The notes beneath the pieces are model-generated. The model was not told the origin of the DNA. It saw nothing but the letters and a program-made list of their open reading frames with translations, and searched no databases. The position numbers and the translations under genes are program-made. DNA of 64,000 nt. Origin: Thioalkalivibrio sp. ALJ16 (GTDB lineage Bacteria; Pseudomonadota; Gammaproteobacteria; Ectothiorhodospirales; Ectothiorhodospiraceae). The stretch is from the NCBI RefSeq assembly GCF_000377345.1, contig NZ_KB898043.1, positions 1 through 64,000 on the forward strand. The letters run 5' to 3'. Positions 794 to 21,604 of the stretch are shown here, one piece after another. The stretch's first letter is position 1; every line of letters begins with the position of its first letter.

Positions 794-3241
794 ATGGCCC
801 TGAAGAAATCCCAGCTCTATTCGTCTCTGTGGCAGTCCTGCAACGAGCTTCGCGGTGGCATGGATGCCTCGCAGTACAAGGATTACGTGCTGACGCTGCT
901 GTTCATGAAGTACGTCAGCGACAAGAAAGATTCGCTGATCGAGGTGCCCGAAGGTGGCAGCTTCGCCGACATGGTCGCGGTGAAGGGCGACAAGGAGATC
1001 GGGGACAAGATCAACAAGATCATTGGCAGGCTCGCCGAGGCGAATGACCTGAAGGGCGTCATCGACCAGGCTGATTTCAACGACGAGACCAAGCTCGGCT
1101 CCGGCAAGGACATGCAGGACCGGCTCCAGAAGCTGGTCGGCATTTTCGAGACGCTGGACCTGGGGGCAAACCGTGCCGACGGTGACGACCTGCTGGGTGA
1201 TGCCTACGAGTATCTGATGCGCCACTTCGCCACCGAGTCCGGCAAGAGCAAGGGACAGTTCTACACCCCGGGCGAGGTATCACGCGTGATCGCTCAGGTG
1301 GTCGGCATCGGGAGGGATACGCGCCAGGACGAAACGCTTTATGACCCCACATGCGGATCGGGGTCCCTGCTATTGCGTGCGGCCTACGAGGCGCCCAACG
1401 GCATGAGCATCTACGGCCAGGAGAACGACAACGCCACCTGGGCGCTGGGCAAGATGAACATGATCCTGCACGACTACCCGACCGCCGAGCTCTGGAGGGG
1501 CAACACGCTCTCCGCACCGTACTTCCGCAACTCGGAGGGTGGGCTGAAGACCTTCGACTACGCGGTGGCCAATCCCCCGTTCTCGGCGAAGTCGTGGACC
1601 AACGGCGTGGACCCGGCCAACGATGAATTCGGTCGCTTCGAATACGGCATCCCGCCCGCCAAGAACGGCGATTACGCCTTCCTGCTGCATCTGATCAAAT
1701 CGCTCAAATCGGCAGGCAAGGGCGCGATCATCCTGCCGCACGGCGTACTGTTCCGGGGCAACAAGGAGGCGGATATCCGCCGCGAACTGGTTCGGCGGGG
1801 CCTGATCAAGGGCATCATCGGCCTGCCGGGCAACCTGTTCTATGGCACGGGCATCCCGGCCTGCATCCTCGTCATCGACAAGGAACACGCCGGCTCCCGC
1901 AAGGGCATCTTCATGATCGATGCCAGTCGCGAGTTCATGAAGGACGGCAACAAGAACCGCCTGCGCTCCCGCGACATCCACAAGATCGTGGATGTGTTCC
2001 GCAACGTTCGGGAGATACCCGGTTATTCGCGTCTGGTCCCGGTGGCCGAGATCGCCAGCGAGGCCAATGCCTACAACCTCAACATTCCGCGTTACATCGA
2101 CTCGGCCCAGACCGAAGACCTGCATGATCTCGATGCCCACTTGAACGGCGGGATCCCGGAACGGGATGTAGAGGGGCTGGGAGATTACTGGGCGGTGTTG
2201 CCGTCGGTGCGGGGGGCGCTGTTTGCTGCGGGGGATCGCCCGGGCTACCTGACCGCGCGGGTGCCGACGCGGGAGGTGAAAGATGCGATCCTCAACCATC
2301 CCGACTTCCAGGCCTTCGCCGCCACCGTGAGCGAAGTGATGGACGGTTGGGAGCAGGCCCATCGCCCGGCACTCCTGGCCCTGGAACCCGGCATTCAGCC
2401 ACGTGATGTCATCTACCACCTGGCGGAGGATCTGCTCCAGCGATTCGCCGAGGTGCCCTTGCTGGACCGCTACGCGGTGTACCAGCGTCTCATGGATTAC
2501 TGGGCCGAGGGGATGCAGGACGATGTGTACCTGATTGCCACGGACGGCTGGGAGGAGGCCGCCCGTGCCCGCGGTGTGATTAAGGACAAGGAGCGCAAGA
2601 TTGAGGAAGAACCCGACCTGATCGTCGGCAGCGGTAAAAAGGCCAAAAAGTACAAGCTCGACCTGATCCCGCCGGCACTCGTTATCGCCCGCTACTTCGC
2701 CGACGAACAGGCCCGGCTCGACACCCTGCAGGCCGAAGCCGAGACCGCCAGCCGCGAGCTGGAGGAATTCATCGAGGAACAGGACGGCGAGGAAGACCCA
2801 TTGAGCGAGGTCAAGAACGACAAGGGCAAGGTCACCAAAACCGAGATCCCCAAGCGCCTCAAGGCCCTCAGGGACGAACCAGACAGCGAGGAAGAGATCG
2901 CCGCCCTCAAACAGTGCAAGAGCCTGATGGATGCCGAAGCCGCCGCCAAGAAGGCGGTCAACAACGCCGACACCGAATTGAACCAGGCGGTGCTCGCACG
3001 TTATGGCGAACTGAGCGTGGATGAGGTTAGAACCCTGGTTGTGGACGACAAGTGGCTGGCCGACATCCGCGCAGCCATCCAGGCCGAGGTGGACCGCATC
3101 ACCAACCAGCTCGCCGGCCGCGTGCGCGAACTGGAAGAGCGCTACGCCGAGCCCCTGCCAGACATCGAGCGCGAGGTGGAGGCACTGGCCGCTCGAGTCA
3201 CCGGCCACCTGGAAAAGATGAGGATGCGGGTCGATGGCTGA
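794..3241 (+). CDS. hsdM: Type I restriction-modification system, DNA methyltransferase subunit M
   Basis: 815 residues. It transfers a methyl group from S-adenosylmethionine to the N6 of adenine in the site chosen by HsdS. An HsdM N-terminal helical domain (about residues 1-140) is followed by the methylase core with the GQFYTP motif (about 154), the SAM-binding DPTCGSGSLL (about 184) and the catalytic NPPF (about 259). The protein is longer than the usual 500 residues: residues about 450-815 form an extra, highly charged, helical and coiled-coil tail, an arrangement seen in a subset of HsdM proteins. It overlaps hsdS by 8 bases, so the two are translationally coupled. Confidence 0.95.
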   Translation: MALKKSQLYSSLWQSCNELRGGMDASQYKDYVLTLLFMKYVSDKKDSLIEVPEGGSFADMVAVKGDKEIGDKINKIIGRLAEANDLKGVIDQADFNDETKLGSGKDMQDRLQKLVGIFETLDLGANRADGDDLLGDAYEYLMRHFATESGKSKGQFYTPGEVSRVIAQVVGIGRDTRQDETLYDPTCGSGSLLLRAAYEAPNGMSIYGQENDNATWALGKMNMILHDYPTAELWRGNTLSAPYFRNSEGGLKTFDYAVANPPFSAKSWTNGVDPANDEFGRFEYGIPPAKNGDYAFLLHLIKSLKSAGKGAIILPHGVLFRGNKEADIRRELVRRGLIKGIIGLPGNLFYGTGIPACILVIDKEHAGSRKGIFMIDASREFMKDGNKNRLRSRDIHKIVDVFRNVREIPGYSRLVPVAEIASEANAYNLNIPRYIDSAQTEDLHDLDAHLNGGIPERDVEGLGDYWAVLPSVRGALFAAGDRPGYLTARVPTREVKDAILNHPDFQAFAATVSEVMDGWEQAHRPALLALEPGIQPRDVIYHLAEDLLQRFAEVPLLDRYAVYQRLMDYWAEGMQDDVYLIATDGWEEAARARGVIKDKERKIEEEPDLIVGSGKKAKKYKLDLIPPALVIARYFADEQARLDTLQAEAETASRELEEFIEEQDGEEDPLSEVKNDKGKVTKTEIPKRLKALRDEPDSEEEIAALKQCKSLMDAEAAAKKAVNNADTELNQAVLARYGELSVDEVRTLVVDDKWLADIRAAIQAEVDRITNQLAGRVRELEERYAEPLPDIEREVEALAARVTGHLEKMRMRVDG

Positions 3242-4616
3242 GCGCAGCGAGGCAGTGCAAGAGCAGGTCGTGCGGGATGCGTTGGCCGCCTACGCGGTGA
3301 AGCCCGAGAGCGCGACTGCTGAGGACGTGCCGCTTGGGTATAAGCGGACTGAGGTAGGGGTGATTCCGGAGGATTGGGTCGTACTTAGGCTGGGGGATAG
3401 AGCGACGTTTAAGAAAGGCTTCGGTTTATCGAAAGCGGATTTGAGTGAAAGCGGCTCACATCAGTGTATACATTATGGCCAGTTATATACGCTTTATGGA
3501 GAAGTTATAAATGAGGTTGTTAGTCGGACGGATCGTTCGATAAGGAACGCTACGGTTTCCCGAGAAAAAGACGTTCTAATGCCAACATCGGATGTAACGC
3601 CAAGAGGCTTGGCTACTGCAAGTTGTTTAGCTCAGGGTAACGTTTATCTGGGTGGCGACATCCTCGTGATTCGGCCAGATGCGAATGAGTTGGTAGGGGA
3701 ATACTTGGCATACGCAGTTAAGGTTTTTCGCCATAGAATCATGCGTCTGGTGAGTGGAACCACTGTCTATCACCTCTATCCGAGAGACATGGCGCAATTT
3801 AGGTTTCCTGTTCCTAATGTTGGAGAACAACACGCCATCGCCACCGCACTGTCGGACGCGGACGCGCTGATCGAATCCCTCGACCGCCTGATCGCCAAAA
3901 AGCGCGCCATCAAACAGGCCGCCATGCAACAACTCCTCACCGGCCAGACCCGCCTGCCGGGTTTCACCGGGGAATGGGAGACGAAGCGATTGGGTAACGT
4001 TGCCTCCTTTCACAAGGGAAGCGGTCTTTCCAAGGCGGACTTGCTCGTCGATGGGAGCAGTCCTTGTATTCACTACGGAGAGTTATTCACGCAGTACGGC
4101 GAGAGGATTACCAGCGTAAACAGTCGAACAGATCGCAAGGCCGCTTGCTTCAAGTCAATCGAGAACGACGTTCTTATGCCGACATCGGATGTCACTCCTA
4201 GCGGCTTGGCAACAGCAAGCTGCATCGCCAATTCTAATGTCATTCTTGGAGGAGATATTCTCATTATTCGGCCGACTGGATCGGAAATCGACGGAACATT
4301 TCTCGCCTACAAGATCCGAATGGATCACCGGCAGATAATGCAGCTCGTATCCGGAACGACCGTGTTTCATATATACGGTCGAGATATGGCCGAGTTTACA
4401 TACAAGGCTCCGGCGATCGAGGAACAGCAAGCTATCGTTTCGGTCCTCTCCGACATGGACACCGAAATAGAGTCTCTGGAGCGCCGCCGCGTCAAGGCCC
4501 GCCAGATCAAGCAGGGCATGATGCAGCAGCTCCTCACCGGGCGGGTGCGACTGGTGGCGCCGGGGCCGACGGTAGGCGGCGATAGTGTGGCCGTCGAGCA
4601 GGAGAGCGCCGAATGA
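3234..4616 (+). CDS. hsdS: Type I restriction-modification system, specificity subunit S
   Basis: 460 residues with the classic layout: an N-terminal arm, target recognition domain 1 (about 35-200), a conserved helical spacer ending KQAAMQQLLTG, target recognition domain 2 (about 245-410), and a second spacer ending KQGMMQQLLTG. The two recognition domains are clearly homologous; both contain LSKADL, CIHYG, DVLMPTSDVTP, GLATASC, GGDIL and LVSGTTV. Two near-identical domains suggest that the two half-sites are the same, i.e. an inverted-repeat bipartite target. The DNA of both recognition domains is visibly more AT-rich than the spacers and neighbours, as expected for exchanged domains. It overlaps the next gene through ATGA. 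Confidence 0.95.
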   Translation: MAERSEAVQEQVVRDALAAYAVKPESATAEDVPLGYKRTEVGVIPEDWVVLRLGDRATFKKGFGLSKADLSESGSHQCIHYGQLYTLYGEVINEVVSRTDRSIRNATVSREKDVLMPTSDVTPRGLATASCLAQGNVYLGGDILVIRPDANELVGEYLAYAVKVFRHRIMRLVSGTTVYHLYPRDMAQFRFPVPNVGEQHAIATALSDADALIESLDRLIAKKRAIKQAAMQQLLTGQTRLPGFTGEWETKRLGNVASFHKGSGLSKADLLVDGSSPCIHYGELFTQYGERITSVNSRTDRKAACFKSIENDVLMPTSDVTPSGLATASCIANSNVILGGDILIIRPTGSEIDGTFLAYKIRMDHRQIMQLVSGTTVFHIYGRDMAEFTYKAPAIEEQQAIVSVLSDMDTEIESLERRRVKARQIKQGMMQQLLTGRVRLVAPGPTVGGDSVAVEQESAE

Positions 4617-5764
4617 ATCGCGTCTCGGTCAACCCTGAACTCATCACCTGGGCGCGTGAGCGCGCCGGACTGGAGCCGCTCGAGCTGACTGGACGTTTCC
4701 CAAGACTGGCGGAATGGGAGAGCGGTGAGGTGCATCCGACACTGCGCCAGCTCGAAGGCTTCGCGCGGGCCGTTCATGTGCCCGTGGGGTATCTCTTTCT
4801 CCCGGCGCCGCCGGTGGAGGCATTGCCGATTCCGGATTTCCGCACCCTGGGCGATCGCGATGTCGCGCGACCGAGCCCGAACCTGCTGGATACGCTGTAT
4901 CTGTGCCAGCAGCGCCAGGAGTGGTATCGCGACCATGCTCGTCTGCATGGGTTAGAGCCGGTGACGTTCGTGGGTAGCGCGCAGGCGGGCAGTGACGTGG
5001 TGGAAGTCGCGGGGCGGGTGCGCGAGACGCTGGGCCTGTCCGTGGCGGAGCGCCAGCGGCTGCCCAGCTGGACGGAGGCCTTGCGTCAGCTTGTCTCTCG
5101 GGCTGAGGAGGCGGGGGTGCTGGTGATGGCCAGCTCGATCGTCGGCAGTAACAGCCACCGCAAGCTGGATGTGGCAGAGTTTCGCGGCTTCGCGCTGGTG
5201 GACGACCTCGCGCCGCTGGTGTTCATCAATGCCGCAGACAGCAAGGCGGCGCAGATGTTCACGCTGGCCCATGAGTTGGCGCACCTGTGGCTGGGGGAGA
5301 GCGGTGTATTCGATGTCGAGGCAGGCCGTCTGCCGAACCAGCGCGTCGAGCGCTGGTGCAACCGCGTGGCGGCCGAAGTATTGATGCCGCTGGAGCGATT
5401 GCACGGGGTGCACCAACCGGGCGTTGCCGTGCCGGAGGAGATTCAGCGTCTAGCGCGGCGGTTCAAGGTCAGCACCCTGGTGGCGCTGCGTCGGCTGTTT
5501 GATGGCGGTCTGATCGATCAGGTGACGCTGTGGGAATGCTACCGCCAAGAGCTGGAACGTATTCGCGCCCTGGATCGTGGCGGTTCCGGTGGGGGTGATT
5601 TCTACCGGACCATGGGCGCGCGCACGGGAAAACGCTTTGCCCGGGCCGTGATGTCCAGCACTCTTGAAGGACAAACGCTGTTCCAGGACGCCTTCCGCAT
5701 GTTGGGGGTGCGCAAGACCTCCACGTTCTATGAAGCGGCACGGGCAATGGGGGTGATGCTGTGA
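4613..5764 (+). CDS. Xre-type HTH / ImmA-IrrE metallopeptidase fusion
   Basis: 383 residues. The N-terminal 70 residues resemble a reduced Xre helix-turn-helix (WARERAGL, LAEWESGEVHPTLRQLEGFA, VPVGYLF). The centre holds an ImmA/IrrE zinc peptidase domain with the HExxH motif as HELAH at about residues 220-224, followed by a downstream AAEVLMP helix typical of the family. Members often cleave or regulate partner repressors or toxins. It starts at an ATGA overlap with hsdS, and its stop overlaps the GTG of the PIN-type gene behind it (GTGA). That pairing looks like an antitoxin/toxin-like module sitting inside the hsd operon. Family is clear; its target is unknown. Confidence 0.85.
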   Translation: MNRVSVNPELITWARERAGLEPLELTGRFPRLAEWESGEVHPTLRQLEGFARAVHVPVGYLFLPAPPVEALPIPDFRTLGDRDVARPSPNLLDTLYLCQQRQEWYRDHARLHGLEPVTFVGSAQAGSDVVEVAGRVRETLGLSVAERQRLPSWTEALRQLVSRAEEAGVLVMASSIVGSNSHRKLDVAEFRGFALVDDLAPLVFINAADSKAAQMFTLAHELAHLWLGESGVFDVEAGRLPNQRVERWCNRVAAEVLMPLERLHGVHQPGVAVPEEIQRLARRFKVSTLVALRRLFDGGLIDQVTLWECYRQELERIRALDRGGSGGGDFYRTMGARTGKRFARAVMSSTLEGQTLFQDAFRMLGVRKTSTFYEAARAMGVML

Positions 5765-6264
5765 GCTATCTCCTCGATGCCAACGTATTCATCCAGGCCA
5801 AGAACCTTCACTACGGCCTGGACTTCTGTCCGGCCTTCTGGGACTGGCTGGTGGTGCAGAATGCGGCGGGCCGGGTGTTCAGCATCGACAAGGTGGCCGA
5901 TGAAATCGCCGCTGGCGAGGACGAGTTGTCGGATTGGATGCGCGAACACGGTCAGGACCTGTTCCGCAGGACCGATATGGGGGTGGCGTCCCGTTTTGGT
6001 GAGGTCAGCGCGTGGGCGACCGCGCAGGATTACGAGCCCGCCGCGATCAATACCTTTCTGCAGGTTGCGGATTACTATCTGATTGCCCATGCGCTGGCGG
6101 ATGGGGGCGTGGTAGTGACACACGAGGTGCCGGCGAACTCCGCCAAGCGTATCAAGATCCCGAATGCCTGCATTGGGCTCGATCTTCGCTTCATGACGCC
6201 GTATGAGATGTTGCGGCAGGAGCGGGCGAAGTTCGTTTTGGGGCCGGGGGCGACTGCAGTCTAG
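5761..6264 (+). CDS. DUF4411 family PIN-like protein (putative toxin)
   Basis: 167 residues, starting at GTG in a GTGA overlap with the peptidase gene. It opens with the PIN-type acidic motif YLLDANVFI, has further acidic residues (the ADYYLIAHA region, about residues 100-110) and a late conserved stretch VTHEVPAN followed by KRIKIPNAC, which matches the DUF4411 family. DUF4411 proteins occur paired with Xre/ImmA proteins and are presumed RNases of toxin-antitoxin type. The catalytic role here is inferred from family and gene pairing. It lies between hsdS and hsdR with no gap. Confidence 0.8.
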   Translation: MSYLLDANVFIQAKNLHYGLDFCPAFWDWLVVQNAAGRVFSIDKVADEIAAGEDELSDWMREHGQDLFRRTDMGVASRFGEVSAWATAQDYEPAAINTFLQVADYYLIAHALADGGVVVTHEVPANSAKRIKIPNACIGLDLRFMTPYEMLRQERAKFVLGPGATAV

Positions 6265-10420: not shown

Positions 10421-11215
10421 ATGACAGATTTGACGTGGCGCAAGGCCATCGAACGAGTGCTGAGTGACGCGGGTGGCGCGATGCACTACACGGACATCGC
10501 CGAGCAGATCGTGGCAGATGGGCTTCGGAAAAACGTGGGCGCCACGCCTCCGGCAACTGTCAACGCAAATATTTCAGGCTCGATCAGCAAGGAAGGAGAC
10601 AAGTCGCCATTCCGAAAGGTGGATCGGGGCGTCTACATGCTCAAGGATGACGGTATTGCCGCTACACCGAAGCTGAAGGCAGGAGCCACGCCTGATGCCA
10701 AAGAGCCCGACGGGGAAAGTGAAGAGCAATATGATGTCGTTTCCTCTTTCGGGATGTTCTGGCGTCGCGACTTCGTGGTCTGGAGCGGGACACCCAAGAT
10801 TCTGGGCATCCAGCAGATTGGTTCCGAGCCGGTCGACTTCTGTGGGCAGTTCGGTATTTATCTGCTCTATGACGGGCGTGAAGTGGTCTATGTGGGACGC
10901 TCGGTCGACCGGCCCCTTGGCCGACGCCTTTATGAGCACACGCTCGACCGCCTTTCTACCCGCTGGGATCGATTCTCCTGGTTCGGTGTTCTGCCAGTCT
11001 CAGACAAAGGAGCACTGCAGAACCAGCCTGAGGCATACGGAGCCGGGAAAATTATCCCTGCATTGGAAGCCATACTGATTGAAGCCTTGGAGCCCCGCCA
11101 GAATCGCAAGCGTGGTGATGATCTCTCCGCCGTCGAATATCTCCAAAAGGAAGACCCTGAGGTAGAGAAACGCAAAGCGCAGGCGGTACTGGCCAAGCTC
11201 GCTAATAAGTTTTAG
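10421..11215 (+). CDS. HARE-HTH and GIY-YIG domain protein (putative nuclease)
   Basis: 264 residues. The N-terminal 70 residues match the HARE-HTH winged helix (TWRKAIERVL, MHYTDIAEQIV, ending FRKVDRGVYML), a domain common in restriction enzymes and chromatin proteins. After a linker, residues about 140-235 form a GIY-YIG nuclease-like domain: GIYLLYDGREVVYVGRS, then an R-x3-H-like pattern (RRLYEHTLDR), a WDRFSWF strand, and a glutamate in the AILIEALEP segment that could bind metal. It lies 107 bases after the YgjP-like gene, possibly in the same operon. Its last 50 codons recur as a broken copy 7.1 kb downstream. Confidence 0.8.
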   Translation: MTDLTWRKAIERVLSDAGGAMHYTDIAEQIVADGLRKNVGATPPATVNANISGSISKEGDKSPFRKVDRGVYMLKDDGIAATPKLKAGATPDAKEPDGESEEQYDVVSSFGMFWRRDFVVWSGTPKILGIQQIGSEPVDFCGQFGIYLLYDGREVVYVGRSVDRPLGRRLYEHTLDRLSTRWDRFSWFGVLPVSDKGALQNQPEAYGAGKIIPALEAILIEALEPRQNRKRGDDLSAVEYLQKEDPEVEKRKAQAVLAKLANKF

Positions 11216-11221
11216 CCATTT
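11066..11221 (+). repeat. Direct repeat copy A: tail of the GIY-YIG gene
   Basis: These 156 bases match 18176-18331 with about ten differences, all but one or two of them at third codon positions. The repeat spans the last 50 codons, the TAG stop and a few bases after it. Together the two copies bracket the small membrane protein gene and the DUF6361-PLD-helicase module. Confidence 0.9.
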
Positions 11222-11320: not shown

Positions 11321-11752
11321 ATGTCGTTAGGCGGCGGGTTGGAGATTGTTGATTTAGATGAATCCGATCGGGATGAGAGTTTTGTAAAGCGTACAATTGT
11401 AGACTCAGTCAAAAAGCATTTTAATAGAATTAAGGTGGAGAATCGGAAAAAGGGGTTCCTGTTAATTGCAAGGAAGAAGGATCTCTGGGGCGGCTCTCTA
11501 GTCGCCTTAAGGGCGAATGTGGATATTCGTATAAAAGATGGAAAAGCAAAGGTCCTTATAGAAAAAGAGTTCAGTAAGCGCTGGCTCTTTTGGTTTTATT
11601 TGCTTGTGTGTGTTCTTTTGATCCCGTTCGCTGGCATTGGAATATTATTTTTGATGGCCCAATGGGTTTGGCATTCTTGTGAAAAGCGTAGGTATTCGGA
11701 TGATTTCGATAAGTCGATAAAGATGGCAATGAATCGGATAAGGTTCGATTAG
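11321..11752 (+). CDS. Small membrane protein of AT-rich composition, function unknown
   Basis: 143 residues from the ATG at 11321, which has AAGGA six bases upstream; an in-frame ATG 11 codons earlier lacks one. A soluble basic N-terminal half (about 1-85) is followed by two adjacent hydrophobic segments (LFWFYLLVCVLLIPFAGIGI and FLMAQWVW) and a charged tail. The coding sequence is much poorer in GC than anything around it, with codons such as TTA, ATA and AAT, so it was probably acquired from a different source. It sits just upstream of the three-gene module. I do not recognise a family. Confidence 0.6.
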   Translation: MSLGGGLEIVDLDESDRDESFVKRTIVDSVKKHFNRIKVENRKKGFLLIARKKDLWGGSLVALRANVDIRIKDGKAKVLIEKEFSKRWLFWFYLLVCVLLIPFAGIGILFLMAQWVWHSCEKRRYSDDFDKSIKMAMNRIRFD

Positions 11753-11976
11753 CAGGAATTGATAATTTATTGTGGCGTCTGCGGCTGGTTTTCTCGTTTG
11801 GTTTGCGATGTTCCATATCGAGGTCGGACCTCGATAAGTGCCTGTAAAGGAATTCGTTAAGGGGTTTGGAGTCGCTTCTATGGATCTTAGAGGCGCGGTT
11901 TTGAGGCGGAAATGACTGGCTGGCGCTGTGGCTCGGGCTGACATGATGTGAAGAGGGTGCACGGAGATGGGAACGA

Positions 11977-13209
11977 ATGCTCCAGTCCAAGATTGCCTGG
12001 CTTGACCACGATGCGGAGGCGCGCGAGCGGAGCATGCGCGTGCTGGCGTTGTTCGGGGAGCGTGATACGCGCGACGAACTGGGGCTTGGGGCGATTCGGG
12101 ATAACCTGGCGGATCTGCTGTTTCCGGGCACGAGTACGATCCAGACGCGTTTGCGGTACATGCTGTTGGTGGTATGGGTGTATCAGCAGGTAGAGGCGGA
12201 GCTGGCGCAGGGTGCGCTTGCGGCGGAGAAGGTGCCGGCCCGGGCGGCGGATCTGGAGTTTCGCATTGTGGATGTGCTACGCGAGGCGGACGACCGGGCC
12301 GGTGTTTTCGGGATTGGGTCCGGGCGGACGCTGCAGCGATTGCCCAGCTCGGTGTACTGGGCAGGGCTGGCATCCTGGGGCATTCGGGAGGTGCCGCTTT
12401 CCCAGGAGCGTTACCACCGCAGTGTGGCCGGCCTGGTGGAACGGCGGCGCGAGGTGGGCGCTCTTGCAGGCGAAGGCGAGCCGGCTGCGGATGTCTCAGA
12501 ATATCGCACCTGGCATGCCGGCCTGCCGGAAGCGCCCGAGCGGTTCCCGGCAGATGTGTCGCTGGCGCTGGGCCGTGCGGAGGCAGCGTTCATCCTGGAC
12601 CGGGTACGTGAGTGTCATCCGACGAGTCTGCTGGCCCATCTGTTCGAGCGCTGCGCGCCGGCGGAGGTGGAGTACCCCTGGGAGCACCCGGATCGGGCGG
12701 GGTTCAGCGACCGGCAGCAGGCGTTGCTGGATCAGGCGGAGAAGCTTGCGGTGCTCGCGCAGGGGGCGTTCCTGCTCTACAACCTGGCGCTGTCCGAACG
12801 GCGCGAACGCGAGGACTGGGTCGAGCACTACGAGCAGCGGATGGATGACTGGACCGAAGCGGCCCGGGCACTGCCGTTGGCGGAGTGGAACCTGGACGAT
12901 CTGTTTGCGCTGACGGATGGGGGAACGCTGCGGGTACAGCAGAGGGCGCGCGACTTCCTGCGCGACTGGCGCGAGCGGGTATTGGCCTGTGGCAGCGACG
13001 GGGCACGGCTGCGGGCGGACGAGGCGGCGCGTGATCTGGTGCGTCGGCGCGAATCGCTGCTGAAGAAGGCGCGTTCGCGCTTCACCAACCCGCAGGCGCT
13101 GACACAATGGAGCGGCCAGTCGGGCGCTTCTCGCTACAACTATCGCTGGCCGACGGTGAGCCGGTTCCACCTTGACCTGTACGCGGCGTTGCAGAGGGAG
13201 GACGGGTGA
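11977..13209 (+). CDS. DUF6361 family protein, first gene of a putative defence module
   Basis: 410 residues. The N-terminal pattern fits the DUF6361 family: a WLDHDAEAR start, GERDTRDELGLGAIRDN and then DLLFPGTSTIQTR. No catalytic motif is obvious; the protein is mostly helical and Arg/Glu-rich. The start ATG has GGAG about ten bases upstream. Its TGA overlaps the ATG of the PLD-like gene. Proteins of this family occur next to PLD-like and helicase genes, which implies a shared complex or pathway; the specific role is unknown. Confidence 0.8.
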   Translation: MLQSKIAWLDHDAEARERSMRVLALFGERDTRDELGLGAIRDNLADLLFPGTSTIQTRLRYMLLVVWVYQQVEAELAQGALAAEKVPARAADLEFRIVDVLREADDRAGVFGIGSGRTLQRLPSSVYWAGLASWGIREVPLSQERYHRSVAGLVERRREVGALAGEGEPAADVSEYRTWHAGLPEAPERFPADVSLALGRAEAAFILDRVRECHPTSLLAHLFERCAPAEVEYPWEHPDRAGFSDRQQALLDQAEKLAVLAQGAFLLYNLALSERREREDWVEHYEQRMDDWTEAARALPLAEWNLDDLFALTDGGTLRVQQRARDFLRDWRERVLACGSDGARLRADEAARDLVRRRESLLKKARSRFTNPQALTQWSGQSGASRYNYRWPTVSRFHLDLYAALQREDG

Positions 13210-15011
13210 TGCTCGATCCGAATGGCCGCAGCCTGTACACGAGCCTGCTCACACCACCGCCCGGATACTCGCTGGACCAGGCGCTGGGCACGACCTTCTC
13301 GCTGGATATTCCGACGCTGCTGACCATTCCCGTTCATCTCTCCCTGCTGGGGGCGGAGCGGCGGGATGACGGGATCGCGGTGTACGAGTCGGTCCGCCGC
13401 ACGATGGATCGGGTCACGCTCTATCTCCAGCGCGGCCAGATGCGAGCGCCGAAAGACGGTGAACCCCTGTTCGGGCTGCTGGAGCCGTGCATGGTGGAGG
13501 TGGAGCCGCCCGGCGACGGGGTGTTTCACCCCAAGGTCTGGGTGCTGCGCTTCCGGCCGGACGAGGGGGTGCGGCAACCGCCGCTGCTGCGGGTAGCGAT
13601 TCTGTCTCGCAACGTGACCGACGATCGCTCCTGGGATCTCTCGCTGCAGCTCGATGGCGAGCTGGGCGACGAAAGTATTGAGGCGAACCGGCCGCTGGCG
13701 CGGCTGCTAGAGAGCCTGCCGGGACTGGCTACGCGCGAGGTCGATGCGGACCGGCGGGCGCAGGCGCGGGAGCTGGCTTGGGATCTGATGTCCTGCAAGT
13801 TTGCGTTGCCCCCTGGTGCCGAGAGTCTGGAGTTTACGGTTCCGGGCCTGCCGGGGATGCGTTGGGAACCCGAGAAGAGCGATCGCCTGGCAGTGATCTC
13901 GCCGTTTCTGAAGGATGCCGCGCTGAGTCGGCTGGCCGGTGCCAGCGCTGGTCCGGTGGCGCTCATTTCGCGTCCGGAGGTGCTGGAGCAGGTTTCGCCG
14001 GATGTCTGCGGCGCCTTCGATGGCTGTTACGTGCTGCACGAGGCGGCCGAGACGGTGGACAACGAGGGCGAGATCGACCACGACACCCACGGGCTGCACG
14101 CCAAGGCATGGATTAGCGAACGAGGTACTCGTACCTCGATCACGCTAGGGTCGGCCAACGTGACGGATGCGGCGTTGCTGGGGCAGCACAACCTCGAGGT
14201 GATCGCGACCCTGAAAGGCCCTCGGCGCAAACTGGGTGGCATCGACGACCTGCTGGGCGAAAAGGGCCTTGGGGGCGTGCTGCAGCGCTGGGAGCCCGGG
14301 GAGCGCGCGGCGCCCGAGGATGCAGAACTCGTGAGGGCGCGCGAGCGGCTGGAGTGGGCGCGTGCCGAACTTGCGCGCGGTGGGTTGCGGGTGGTTTGCG
14401 AGGCGGGCAGTTCGGAGGATATGTGGCGGTGGTGGCTGGTCGGGCATGTGGAACTGCCGGAGTCGGTGAATTGCCGCGTGTGGCCGGTGAGCCGGTCACC
14501 CAGTGATGCGGTAGCGCTTGGGGCGGGCGGTGACGCAGGGAGAAGCGAGTTGCCGTATGGCGGCGTGTCGCATCTGACCGGGGTCATTGCCTTTGTGCTT
14601 ACGGATCCGGCGGCGGACCACGCGCTGCGCTTTGCACTGAACCTGCCGATCGAGGGCTTGCCGGCAGAGGAGCGCGAGGCGGCCATCCTGCGTGCCGTGG
14701 TGGAGAATCGGGACGGGTTCCTGCGGTATCTGATGCTGCTACTGGCGAACGACGATGCCGCCGCTGGTGCTTTTATACCGATGGCGGGAAGCGGTCACGG
14801 GCACTGGCAAAGGGTGGTGCTGGACGAACTGCCGCTTTTGGAAGAGATGACTCGGTGCTACAGCCGGGAGCCGGAGCGCCTGCGGGATATCGCCGAAATG
14901 ATCGAGCGCCTGCAGGGGCGCCTGGGCACATCTGACCTGGTGCCGCCGGAGTTCGAGGCGTTGTGGCGGACGTATCAGGAAGCGATGGAGCACCGTGATG
15001 GCCGGCATTGA
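13209..15011 (+). CDS. Phospholipase-D-like nuclease with two HKD half-sites
   Basis: 600 residues from ATG 13209 (a GTG three bases earlier is also possible). Two HxK half-sites are visible: FHPKVWVLRF at about residue 107, followed by SRNVTDDRSWD, and LHAKAWISE at about residue 297, followed by LGSANVTDAALLG. In PLD-family nucleases such paired half-sites build one active site that cleaves phosphodiester bonds. The remaining C-terminal 270 residues are unassigned. The stop codon overlaps the helicase start by 14 bases, so all three genes of the module are coupled. A nuclease acting with a translocase is the likely function (inference). Confidence 0.82.
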   Translation: MLDPNGRSLYTSLLTPPPGYSLDQALGTTFSLDIPTLLTIPVHLSLLGAERRDDGIAVYESVRRTMDRVTLYLQRGQMRAPKDGEPLFGLLEPCMVEVEPPGDGVFHPKVWVLRFRPDEGVRQPPLLRVAILSRNVTDDRSWDLSLQLDGELGDESIEANRPLARLLESLPGLATREVDADRRAQARELAWDLMSCKFALPPGAESLEFTVPGLPGMRWEPEKSDRLAVISPFLKDAALSRLAGASAGPVALISRPEVLEQVSPDVCGAFDGCYVLHEAAETVDNEGEIDHDTHGLHAKAWISERGTRTSITLGSANVTDAALLGQHNLEVIATLKGPRRKLGGIDDLLGEKGLGGVLQRWEPGERAAPEDAELVRARERLEWARAELARGGLRVVCEAGSSEDMWRWWLVGHVELPESVNCRVWPVSRSPSDAVALGAGGDAGRSELPYGGVSHLTGVIAFVLTDPAADHALRFALNLPIEGLPAEEREAAILRAVVENRDGFLRYLMLLLANDDAAAGAFIPMAGSGHGHWQRVVLDELPLLEEMTRCYSREPERLRDIAEMIERLQGRLGTSDLVPPEFEALWRTYQEAMEHRDGRH

Positions 15012-18000
15012 GGGCTTCGATGCCGGGCTGGTACTGGATGGGCTCAAGCCCTTTCAGCGCCGCACTGTGGATTACGCCTTCCAGCGGCTATTCGACCCGG
15101 CCGGCAGCGGGCGCTTTCTGGTGGCCGACGAGGTGGGGCTGGGCAAGACGCTGGTCGCTCGGGGGGTCATCGCGCGCAGCCTGGAGGCGCTGAGCGGACA
15201 GGGGGAGCGCGTCGACATCATCTACGTGTGCTCGAACGCGGCAATTGCGCAGCAGAACATCCGCCGGATGAATGTACTCGAGGACAGCCATTTTGAACGG
15301 GCCAGCCGCTTGACCCTGTTGCCCGAGACGGTTCATCAGCTCAACCGGAATCCGGTCAATTTCATCAGTCTGACCCCGGGGACCACCTTCAACCTTCGCT
15401 CCAGCACGGGGATCGCACGGGAGCGGGTGCTGCTGTTCCATCTGCTCGACGGGATGGAGGGTCTGAGCCCGACGGGTCTGAGCAAGGTGCTCCAGTGCAA
15501 CGTGGGGGAACGCTGGCCGCAATTGCTGCAAGAGGGGCCGGAGGAGATCGAGGCCGACCTGGCCGCCGCGTTTCTAGAGGATATGCGCCAGCAGACGGAA
15601 CTGCGCGGAGAGCTGCAGCGGATGTGCGAGGTCTTTGAACTACCAGAAGCCGAGTGGCCGGCGGAGACGAATGCCGAGCGCAATGCCCTGGTGGGCCGGC
15701 TGCGCCGCAGGCTCGCGCGCGTCTGTCTGGATGCGCTGCGCCCATCGCTGGTGATCCTGGACGAGTTCCAGCGGTTTTCCGACCTGCTGAACGGGGAGAC
15801 AGAAGAAGCCGAACTGGCCAATGACCTGTTCTCGCTGGAGGGTGCGCGGCTCTTGCTGCTGTCGGCAACTCCGTACCGGATGCTGAGCATGCACGGGGAG
15901 TCGGAGGAGGATCACCACCAGAACTTCCTGGATACGGTGGGGTTCCTGTACGGCGACGCGCACGAGGTGGACGGACTGCGTTGGGCACTGGAGACCTATC
16001 GCCGCGGCTGCCGGCAACTGGCAGAGGGCGATCACGAGGGTATTCAGCAGGCGCGTGAGGGGCTTCAATCACGGTTGCTACGGGTGATGTGCAGAACGGA
16101 GCGCGTGGGCCTGACGCGCCGGCGCGATGCCATGCTTTCCGGGGACGAGCACGTCGTGGATCTGGCGCCCCTGGATCTCGAATATGCCCGGAACATCGAT
16201 TCCACGGCGCATGCGGCGGGATTGCCGGATGTCATCGAGTACTGGAAGTCGGTGCCGTTCATGCTCAGCTACATGCGCGGTTATCAGATGCGCCGGGAGC
16301 TGGATGCCATTGCGACCAAGCCACCAAAGAGGCTTCGGCGGGCGATCGCGCGGGGAATGGGGCTCAGTACGATCGACGTCAATCGCATTGAGGCTTATGA
16401 GTCGCTGGATATTCCGCACGCCCGGATGCGCGGATTCATTGAAGAAACCGTGGGTGCTGGTCTGTGGGAGCTTCTGTGGTTGCCGCCTTCGCTGCCCTAT
16501 ACGAAGCTGGCCGGGCCGTGGGCGCGGGCAGGGGAGGTCACCAAACAGCTCGTGTTCTCGGCCTGGAATGCCGTGCCGGATGCGATTGCGACGCTGTGCT
16601 CGTACGAGGCGCAGGCGAGGGCGTTTGGCCAGGTAGGCGGGGAGGTCGGGTACAGCAACACCTACGAACGGGTCCGGCCCCTGTTGCGATTCCAGACCGA
16701 TGCGGATGGGCGCCTGACGGGAATGCCGGCCCTGGCCCGCATCATGCCGGCGCCTCGCCTGGCTCGCGAGGTGGATCCTTTGCGTCTGGCCATCACCCTT
16801 GGCAATGGTGAACCGCCGGCGCTCGACGTACTCCTCGCGGAGGCCACGCGGCAATGCCGTGATCTCCTCGCGGAACTACCACCAGGGGACGATCACGGGC
16901 GAGTCGACGAACGCTGGTACTGGGCCGCGATCGCGATGCTGGAACGGGATGCGCGCCTGATCGAGTGGATGCGGGCCACGAGTGGCTGGATCGAGGCCAT
17001 ACCTGACCGGGAAGACAGCGAGCAGTTTCGTACCCATCGGGACCAGATGATCCGAGCGATGAAGGGGGAGCTGGAACTTGGGCGGCGCCCGCCGGATCTT
17101 GCCGAAGTTCTGGCCCGGTTCGCGCTTGGGGGCCCCGCGGTTTGCGCGCTACGTGCATTGCGGCGGGTGGCTACGGATATCGACTGGAATGATCCGGCAC
17201 TGTTGCTGGGGGCCGCGCGGGTGGCCAACGGGTTTCGTACCCTCTTCAACCTGCCCGAGAGCGTGGTCCTGATCCACAACCGCGATGCAAAGCCCTATTG
17301 GCGGCAGGCATTGGACTACGCGGTGGAAGGCAATCTGCAGGCGGTCCTGGACGAACAGGTGCATCTGTTGCCGGAACAACTTGGAAGGGTGGAGGCATCC
17401 GCGACCGAGCGTATTGATGCAGTGGCACGAGCTGTGACGGAATCACTATCGATGCGGGCTGTCGGACTCAAGGTAGACGACGTTAGAGTCCAGAAGCGTC
17501 GTATGAAAGTCGATACCTTCTCAATTCGGTGCAGGTTCGCGCTGAGATTCGGCGATGTACGGGATGATACCGATGGCACCGTAGCCCGTGCCGATTCAGT
17601 GCGTGCGGCCTTTAATTCACCCTTTCGTCCTTTTGTGCTGGCCAGCACTTCGGTCGGGCAGGAAGGACTGGATTTCCACACTTGGTGTCACTCGGTGGTG
17701 CACTGGAACCTGCCGTCGAATCCGGTCGATATGGAGCAGCGCGAAGGGCGAGTTCATCGCTACAAGGGCCACGCGGTGAGGAGGAACGTCGCCCAGCACA
17801 TCGGCCTGGCCGCCCTTGCGGACTGGGAAGATGGCGGAGACCCGTGGGCTCGTCTGTTCGAGTGCGCCGAAGCGACGGAGTTTGGTCAGCAATCCGACCT
17901 GGCACCGTGGTGGATCTACGAGGCCGGGGACGCACGCATTAAGCGGCGAGTCCTGCTCTTGCCGCTGAGCCGCGATGTGGGGCGCCTCAAGCGCATGAAG

Positions 18001-18132
18001 CGGCAACTAGCGCTCTACCGAATGGTGTTTGGCCAGCCGCGTCAGGAAGACCTGATCGCCTATCTCGATCATGCCCTGCCGGAGGACGCGCCAGAGGACT
18101 GGCAGATTTCTCTACTTCCTCCCCCGACGTAA
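14998..18132 (+). CDS. Large SNF2/DEAD-like helicase of the putative defence module
   Basis: 1044 residues. Motif I is ADEVGLGKTLVARGV (about residues 42-56), motif II is LDEFQRF (about 254-260), motif III is LLLSATPYRML, and lobe 2 ends with VGQEGLDFH and QREGRVHRYKG (about 880-920). This is the pattern of SNF2/RapA-like ATPases that move along double-stranded DNA. About 500 residues separate the two RecA lobes (roughly 305-830), much more than usual, so there is a large extra domain. It is encoded last, overlapping the PLD gene. A motor for DNA recognition or feeding to the nuclease is the likely role (inference). Confidence 0.85.
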   Translation: MAGIEGFDAGLVLDGLKPFQRRTVDYAFQRLFDPAGSGRFLVADEVGLGKTLVARGVIARSLEALSGQGERVDIIYVCSNAAIAQQNIRRMNVLEDSHFERASRLTLLPETVHQLNRNPVNFISLTPGTTFNLRSSTGIARERVLLFHLLDGMEGLSPTGLSKVLQCNVGERWPQLLQEGPEEIEADLAAAFLEDMRQQTELRGELQRMCEVFELPEAEWPAETNAERNALVGRLRRRLARVCLDALRPSLVILDEFQRFSDLLNGETEEAELANDLFSLEGARLLLLSATPYRMLSMHGESEEDHHQNFLDTVGFLYGDAHEVDGLRWALETYRRGCRQLAEGDHEGIQQAREGLQSRLLRVMCRTERVGLTRRRDAMLSGDEHVVDLAPLDLEYARNIDSTAHAAGLPDVIEYWKSVPFMLSYMRGYQMRRELDAIATKPPKRLRRAIARGMGLSTIDVNRIEAYESLDIPHARMRGFIEETVGAGLWELLWLPPSLPYTKLAGPWARAGEVTKQLVFSAWNAVPDAIATLCSYEAQARAFGQVGGEVGYSNTYERVRPLLRFQTDADGRLTGMPALARIMPAPRLAREVDPLRLAITLGNGEPPALDVLLAEATRQCRDLLAELPPGDDHGRVDERWYWAAIAMLERDARLIEWMRATSGWIEAIPDREDSEQFRTHRDQMIRAMKGELELGRRPPDLAEVLARFALGGPAVCALRALRRVATDIDWNDPALLLGAARVANGFRTLFNLPESVVLIHNRDAKPYWRQALDYAVEGNLQAVLDEQVHLLPEQLGRVEASATERIDAVARAVTESLSMRAVGLKVDDVRVQKRRMKVDTFSIRCRFALRFGDVRDDTDGTVARADSVRAAFNSPFRPFVLASTSVGQEGLDFHTWCHSVVHWNLPSNPVDMEQREGRVHRYKGHAVRRNVAQHIGLAALADWEDGGDPWARLFECAEATEFGQQSDLAPWWIYEAGDARIKRRVLLLPLSRDVGRLKRMKRQLALYRMVFGQPRQEDLIAYLDHALPEDAPEDWQISLLPPPT

Positions 18133-18162: not shown

Positions 18163-18325
18163 AGGCATTGCGTCGGAAGCCATCCTGATCGAAGCCTTTG
18201 AGCCCCGCCAGAATCGCAAGCGTGGCGATGATCTCTCCGCCGTCGAATAACTGCAGAAGGAAGACCCTGAGGTAGAGAAACGCAAAGCGCAGGCGGTACT
18301 GGCCAAGCTCGCCAATAAGTTCTAG
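18163..18325 (+). pseudogene. Broken second copy of the GIY-YIG gene tail (direct repeat copy B)
   Basis: In the same frame as the intact gene this reads ASEAILIEAFEPRQNRKRG, then a TAA where the intact gene has TAT (Tyr), then QKEDPEVEKRKAQAVLAK to a TAG. About 94% of the bases match 11066-11221, and the differences are nearly all silent third-position changes. This implies that the fragment was a separately evolving coding copy before it was truncated and stopped, rather than a recent duplicate. It begins 31 bases after the helicase stop. Confidence 0.85.
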
Positions 18326-18417
18326 CGATTTGCGATGTGTGGCCGGAGGCCTAAAGTCATTGGCTGAGTTGCGCCATGCGCTGGTGCTTGTTCAGTGGGA
18401 GTGGATATTGACGAGAT

Positions 18418-21296: not shown

Positions 21297-21390
21297 TTTG
21301 TCACGGAGCCAGGTACTCGTAGGGCACAAGTAGCCCCAGCAGCGTGTTACAGGTTTGTCACAGAAGTGGCACGAGAGTGTCACGGGACGT
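21297..21390. promoter_or_regulatory. Repeated GTCAC sites near the tRNA end (possible integrase arm sites)
   Basis: Three copies of a TGTCACNG(A/G) motif occur at 21299, 21355 and 21378 (TTTGTCACGG, TTTGTCACAG, AGTGTCACGG), and a reverse GTGAC follows the last. They lie between the element genes and the tRNA-Arg gene, where integrase arm-type sites are expected. The assignment is by position and repetition only. Confidence 0.45.
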
Positions 21391-21408
21391 GACCTGACCC
21401 AAAACGAA

Positions 21409-21443
21409 AAAGGGACCAGCGACTGTAAGTCACTGATCCCTTT
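21409..21443 (-). terminator. Intrinsic terminator after tRNA-Arg
   Basis: On the minus strand a hairpin with outer stem AAAGGGA/TCCCTTT and an inner GACTTACAGTC part is followed by a T-run (TCCCTTTTTCG). It lies just after the 3' end of tRNA-Arg. Confidence 0.75.
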
Positions 21444-21453
21444 CTCAGGAATA

Positions 21454-21530
21454 TGGCGCGCCCGGAAGGATTCGAACCTCCGACCACCTGGTTCGTAGCC
21501 AGGTACTCTATCCAGCTGAGCTACGGGCGC
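21454..21530 (-). tRNA. tRNA-Arg (anticodon ACG)
   Basis: A full cloverleaf on the minus strand: acceptor GCGCCCG/CGGGCGC, D-arm AGCTCAGCTGGATAGAG, anticodon stem CCTGG/CCAGG with loop CTACGAA (anticodon ACG), T-arm GGAGGTTCGAATCCTTC, and an encoded CCA at 21456-21454. The neighbouring integrase faces away from its 3' end, so this gene is the likely insertion site of the island. Confidence 0.97.
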
Positions 21531-21604
21531 GTCGTCTGGAGGCGCGCATTATCGCGATTGCCCCCGGTGGATGCAAGCCGTTCGCGCCGATTCGTCTCCA
21601 GCGG

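Follow-up and report, generated by a model that had tools for sequence, protein, structure and literature searches.

Three genes of Thioalkalivibrio sp. ALJ16 that match the anti-phage system Azaca

The window, a stretch of 64,000 nucleotides from Thioalkalivibrio sp. ALJ16, contains three overlapping genes that code for a DUF6361 protein, a PLD-type nuclease and an SNF2-like motor. The question raised by this locus is whether the three genes form an anti-phage system without a name or a copy of one already described. The original prediction could not assign them to a described system. Our analysis places them in Azaca, with the genes zacA, zacB and zacC.

Identity and linkage of the three genes

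The zacA gene (11977-13209, + strand) codes for an all-helical accessory protein of 410 residues. The zacB gene (13206-15011, + strand) codes for a PLD-type nuclease with two HxK half-sites, and zacC (14995-18132, + strand) for an SNF2-like motor of helicase superfamily 2 with a large insert predicted in the second RecA lobe. The genes are adjacent and co-directional. The zacA/zacB junction is a TGATG overlap, and zacB starts at GTG 13206 or ATG 13209. The overlap of zacB and zacC measures 14 bases, with the zacB stop at 15011 and the zacC start at GTG 14995 or ATG 14998. These coordinates, lengths and overlaps agree with those first described.

In the PADLOC search, the first gene matched a single family, ZacA (PDLC03828), with an expectation value (E) of 1.9e-125, and residues 3-406 of 410 aligned to model positions 2-395 of 396. 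The second gene matched ZacB (PDLC03829, E 6.1e-172) over residues 2-597 of 601, and its next matches, three DrmC models, were much weaker (best E 9.1e-4). The third gene matched ZacC (PDLC03830, E 0, 1152 bits) over residues 11-1042 of 1045; the runner-up among 24 PADLOC families was PDC-M27C (E 1.7e-19). The Zac models were by far the strongest PADLOC match for each of the three genes. The aligned relatives also matched their own PADLOC model (ZacA 21/21 at E 1e-5, ZacB 20/20 at E 1e-10, ZacC 20/20).

A search with models of known systems had been proposed along with the original prediction. As all three genes match one named system, the reading as an unnamed system falls. Going by the PADLOC models on which the naming rests, zacABC is almost certainly a complete and ordinary copy of Azaca. 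Azaca is already known, and this copy is not a new system. The wider expectation, an anti-phage system that combines nuclease, motor and accessory protein and is placed among defence genes, was borne out. Azaca was reportedly first described by Millman et al. 2022. Passages in PMC10952713, PMC12926258 and PMC13321033 credit Millman et al. 2022 for the system, and a passage in PMC12278908 gives ZacC as its helicase.

Co-occurrence of the three families, another check proposed at the outset, was assessed by separate profile searches in 369 genomes of the class (cut-offs of E 1e-10 for ZacA, E 1e-10 for ZacB and E 1e-60 for ZacC). ZacA, ZacB and ZacC were each found in seven genomes. The seven were the same for every family, the ALJ16 genome included, and the matches had adjacent coordinates. 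Among 398 genomes of the phylum, ZacA was present in five, two of them also in the class sample. Azaca is rare, and its genes keep together.

Twenty related loci, picked by a ZacA or ZacC match, gave a similar picture (phmmer, E 1e-5). ZacA and ZacC were detected in all 20 (ZacC of L035 in two frames) and ZacB in 19. In L045, the locus without a ZacB match, a 623-residue open frame with the half-sites HPK and HAK lies in the place of zacB. Because these loci were selected by one of the genes, the count in 369 genomes is the fairer test. The order A-B-C is retained across the related loci and in annotated plasmid records. Azaca loci were located on plasmids of Halomarina (haloarchaeal), Cronobacter, Phaeobacter and Bradyrhizobium. 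ZacC occurred in 45 plasmid records at E 1e-40, and the layout was looked at in five of them. The annotation of B. elkanii pBel61 shows the same three-gene layout, with the middle gene labelled hypothetical. Six of nine neighbour genes of the relatives, picked by eye and without a control, matched PADLOC at E 1e-5. They matched HmaC, PDC-M01B and Orf5/HEC-06; one further match was MkoA-like and partial, and two genes were type I HsdR-like.

Three of the other loci had features of their own. In L035 (10424-13565), zacC changes frame near residue 487 and so occupies two frames, which may reflect a broken gene, a sequencing error or a frameshift. In L050 (4789-14272), a phage record (MT835621) that is unannotated and unverified, zacA, zacB and zacC come after a type I HsdR-like gene. 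In L015 (8733-9349, Thioalkalivibrio ALMg11), a 21st locus that was excluded from the count as a remnant, tblastn detected only codons 1-91 of zacA followed directly by codons 929-1045 of zacC in two pieces. To judge from this arrangement, an Azaca operon was deleted here and left a scar.

The three proteins and a proposed mechanism

ZacA contains the DUF6361 domain initially assigned to it (Pfam PF19888, E 3.1e-67). Its predicted model, built from 16 sequences, is all-helical, with a predicted local distance difference test score (pLDDT) of 85.5 and a predicted template modelling score (pTM) of 0.82; residues 1-31 and 168-173 are poor. A Foldseek comparison of this model with the PDB gave no match at E 0.001 (best E 0.83). 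The ZacA profile matched the PDB sequences 7sat_C (PorL/GldL, E 0.002) and 3e4e_A (E 0.07). We read both as chance rather than as relatives, and the 7sat_C match covers a helical stretch. In the mechanism proposed below, ZacA would be a scaffold or a sensor.

The two HxK half-sites of ZacB are H108/K110 and H298/K300 counted from GTG, which are residues 107 and 297 counted from ATG, as originally placed. The segments F107-H-P-K110, R135-N136, H298-A-K300 and G315-S316, together with N318, were invariant in all 20 aligned ZacB sequences, that of the window included. Positions 299-396 of the ZacB profile matched the PDB entry 7clg_A, a 'Putative helicase' (E 2.3e-5). A weaker match (E 0.079) was to the restriction endonuclease 2c1l_A.

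ZacC has 1044 residues counted from ATG. Five of its motifs were invariant in 20/20 aligned sequences: GLGKT (48-52), DEFQR (256-260), LLLSATP (287-293), QEGLDFH (889-895) and EQREGR (914-919). We take the segments at 287-293, 517-522 and 885-895 to be motifs III, IV and V. In the AlphaFold2 model, built from 15 sequences, motif IV lies on the strand 517-521 and motif V follows the strand 881-884. Motifs and model together place extra sequence at several sites. A helical stretch at about 128-247 lies within RecA1, and about 220 residues separate motif III from motif IV. The largest block, at about 546-860, is mostly helical with a hairpin. Since this block separates motif IV from motif V, the main insert is, according to the model, inside RecA2. 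Some 500 extra residues had been expected between the RecA lobes; the predicted structure instead spreads the extra sequence over these sites, with the largest block inside RecA2. A RecA2 lobe split by an insert is the layout of INO80/SWR1-type remodellers.

The best Foldseek matches of the ZacC model were SNF2-type motors (SWR1, SRCAP, INO80, ALC1, Chd1, CHD4, ISW1 and RapA). Matches at E 0.001 or lower numbered 27, RapA included, and one of them, 9dci_A, is UvrD1. The ZacC profile gave no match to PDB sequences at E 1e-6. The single ZacC sequence matched two Dicer-related helicases in the PDB (E 0.003 and 0.007).

As a whole, the locus is very probably best explained as a complete Azaca system that would work through a nuclease and a motor. 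The sequence data establish which genes these are, their order and the constancy of the catalytic motifs, and modelling adds predicted structures of ZacA and ZacC; from these we infer the nuclease and motor activities, the assembly of a complex, the choice of target and the protection of this strain. Taken on its own, the mechanism that we propose is evenly poised between right and wrong. ZacC, as an SNF2-type translocase on double-stranded DNA, would engage invading or replicating phage DNA and would carry or activate ZacB. ZacB, as a PLD-type nuclease with two half-sites, would then cut the DNA. ZacA could couple ZacC and ZacB or set the target, and the three proteins would form a complex that protects this strain. 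Because the module has no recurrent methylase gene beside its three genes, the target would probably be discriminated by DNA structure (ends, replication intermediates or damage), as is reported for Hachiman, and not by a methylation mark. Azaca is listed under nuclease activity in a table of PMC10855318 and with a PLD-like domain in a passage of PMC10952713.

Several points weigh against this mechanism or loosen its parts. The Azaca mechanism is entered as unknown in a review table of PMC12926258. The ZacC model is of moderate confidence (pLDDT 78.8, pTM 0.67). Its Foldseek template modelling scores by query length were low (0.14-0.23 among the 50 matches listed) and its root-mean-square deviations large, and the match therefore concerns the motor lobes. 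The Pfam PLDc_2 model scored below its threshold on ZacB (14.9 bits against a cut-off of 27). In the canonical HKD motif, an aspartate stands five residues after the lysine. At this position in the first half-site of ZacB, all 13 sequences compared have R; in the second half-site, 10 of the 13 have E, 2 have D and 1 has K. Because the HKD motifs are incomplete, catalysis by ZacB is likely rather than certain.

It is possible, though rather doubtful, that the Azaca family is a mechanistically new machine. In such a machine, an SNF2 motor with RecA2 split by an insert of about 300 residues would dock two partners, a PLD-type nuclease and the all-helical DUF6361 protein, for which no solved structure gave a significant fold match. 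The machine would sense the state of DNA and not its modification. The result leaves one candidate fewer among unnamed systems and turns attention to how Azaca itself works, a subject to which none of the paper titles among the literature matches listed was devoted. The conserved half-sites, the location of the insert in ZacC and the predicted structure of ZacA point to residues and domains that are open to testing. What is new here is small: the placement of the largest ZacC block within RecA2 in the predicted structure, and a ZacA model without a significant fold match in the PDB.

Alternative readings and the surrounding island

Two other readings of the locus were weighed. One takes the module as a relative of DISARM, with a DrmC nuclease and the SNF2-like helicase DrmD. 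DISARM is defined by DrmB (DUF1998) and the DISARM methylase together with DrmA and DrmC. Besides the weak DrmC matches of ZacB, the PADLOC models DrmD (E 9e-14) and DrmA (E 1.3e-10) matched ZacC, and the NCBIfam model DISARM_DrmD scored 58.6 bits on ZacC against a cut-off of 610. These Drm matches are local, whereas the Zac matches are near full length and far stronger. Neither DrmB nor a DISARM methylase was among the matches listed for 13 genes of the window (for the two type I restriction-modification genes, among the best 25 families). DISARM had been set aside in the original prediction too, rightly so by these results, and we give this reading virtually no chance. On the PADLOC results, DISARM, Hachiman and Mokosh were all ruled out as the identity of the module.

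The other reading adds a fourth part to Azaca, the small membrane protein that had been suspected just upstream, and would make the locus a variant of the system. A small AT-rich open reading frame (ORF) with one hydrophobic stretch (ATG 11321-11752, + strand, 143 residues) does end 224 base pairs (bp) before zacA. Hydrophobic ORFs also precede zacA in L010 (343 bp), L011 (195 bp) and L033 (945 bp), which speaks for such a part; in total they lie at most 1500 bp upstream of zacA in 4/21 loci, the window included, and in three of these loci the distance is below 350 bp. Controls were counted for ORFs with at least two hydrophobic stretches, which were present in 1/21 zacA upstream regions against 7/174 control tiles. 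The ORF at 11321-11752 itself was present in 1/30 genomes of the genus, its own. It had no homologue in 13 related loci (tblastn, E 1e-4), in the 20 loci (phmmer, ORFs of at least 100 residues, E 1e-5) or in the plasmid collection. It had no match in PADLOC, Pfam or PHROGs and a single one in NCBIfam (E 0.03), where it scored 13 bits and the cut-off is 550. The G+C content in 500-base bins was 46-49% over this ORF and 61-69% over zacABC. A fourth part at this position is very improbable. The ORF is best read as island cargo and is probably not a part of Azaca, which we keep as a three-gene system.

A 163-bp direct repeat encloses the ORF and zacABC, with one copy on each side (repeat search, 93%; 151/163 identical). 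The left copy (11059-11221, + strand) is the 3' end of a HARE-HTH gene (10421-11215). The right copy (18169-18331, + strand) begins 36 bp after zacC; it is the remnant of a gene's 3' part and contains a TAA stop. Recombination at the end of the HARE-HTH gene, or a duplication of that end, may have brought the module here. The HARE-HTH protein had no PADLOC match, and a search of the plasmid collection at E 1e-15 gave one relative (Solidesulfovibrio magneticus RS-1, 38%). By eye, its C-terminal half looks GIY-YIG-like.

As originally described, type I restriction-modification genes and a tyrosine integrase flank the module on either side. The upstream operon consists of M (794-3241), S (3234-4616) and R (to 9595), and is followed by a YgjP-like peptidase gene and then the HARE-HTH gene. 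Between hsdS and hsdR (4613-6264) lie genes for an M78 (ImmA/IrrE-like) peptidase and a DUF4411 protein, which are perhaps an embedded toxin-antitoxin pair. Downstream of zacABC are an HD-type gene, the tyrosine integrase gene and then a tRNA-Arg gene. In Thioalkalivibrio ALE14 (L010), too, Azaca has relatives of the HD gene (39%) and of the integrase (51%) behind it. Exact repeats of the tRNA-Arg region (21361-21560) of at least 13 bases were absent from the rest of the window. Since the window begins at the first base of the contig, the other end of the island may be on another contig, and no boundary is claimed.

Comparison with known systems

DISARM shares the combination of a PLD-type nuclease and an SNF2-like motor with this module; it differs in that the DrmA, DrmC and DrmD matches obtained here are only local and much weaker than those to the Zac models. 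Mokosh is composed of MkoA with MkoB, or of MkoC. No Mko model matched the three genes in PADLOC at E 0.05. What Mokosh shares with Azaca is a grouping under the PLD-like domain in a passage of PMC10952713.

Hachiman, with the nuclease HamA and the helicase HamB, likewise joins a motor and a nuclease without a methylase, and it offers a plausible model of activation. According to passages in PMC12278908, the motor of Hachiman is the sensor and the nuclease the effector, and the system breaks down phage and host DNA. It differs in its motor, as HamB is described there as Ski2-like. Neither HamA nor HamB matched the three genes in PADLOC, and DUF1837 was not found on them with Pfam.

With Azaca, the locus shares all three gene families near full length, the order A-B-C, the close coupling of the genes and the presence of defence genes nearby. 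No difference of substance was found; this copy lies within an integrase-bearing region, between the two copies of the 163-bp repeat.

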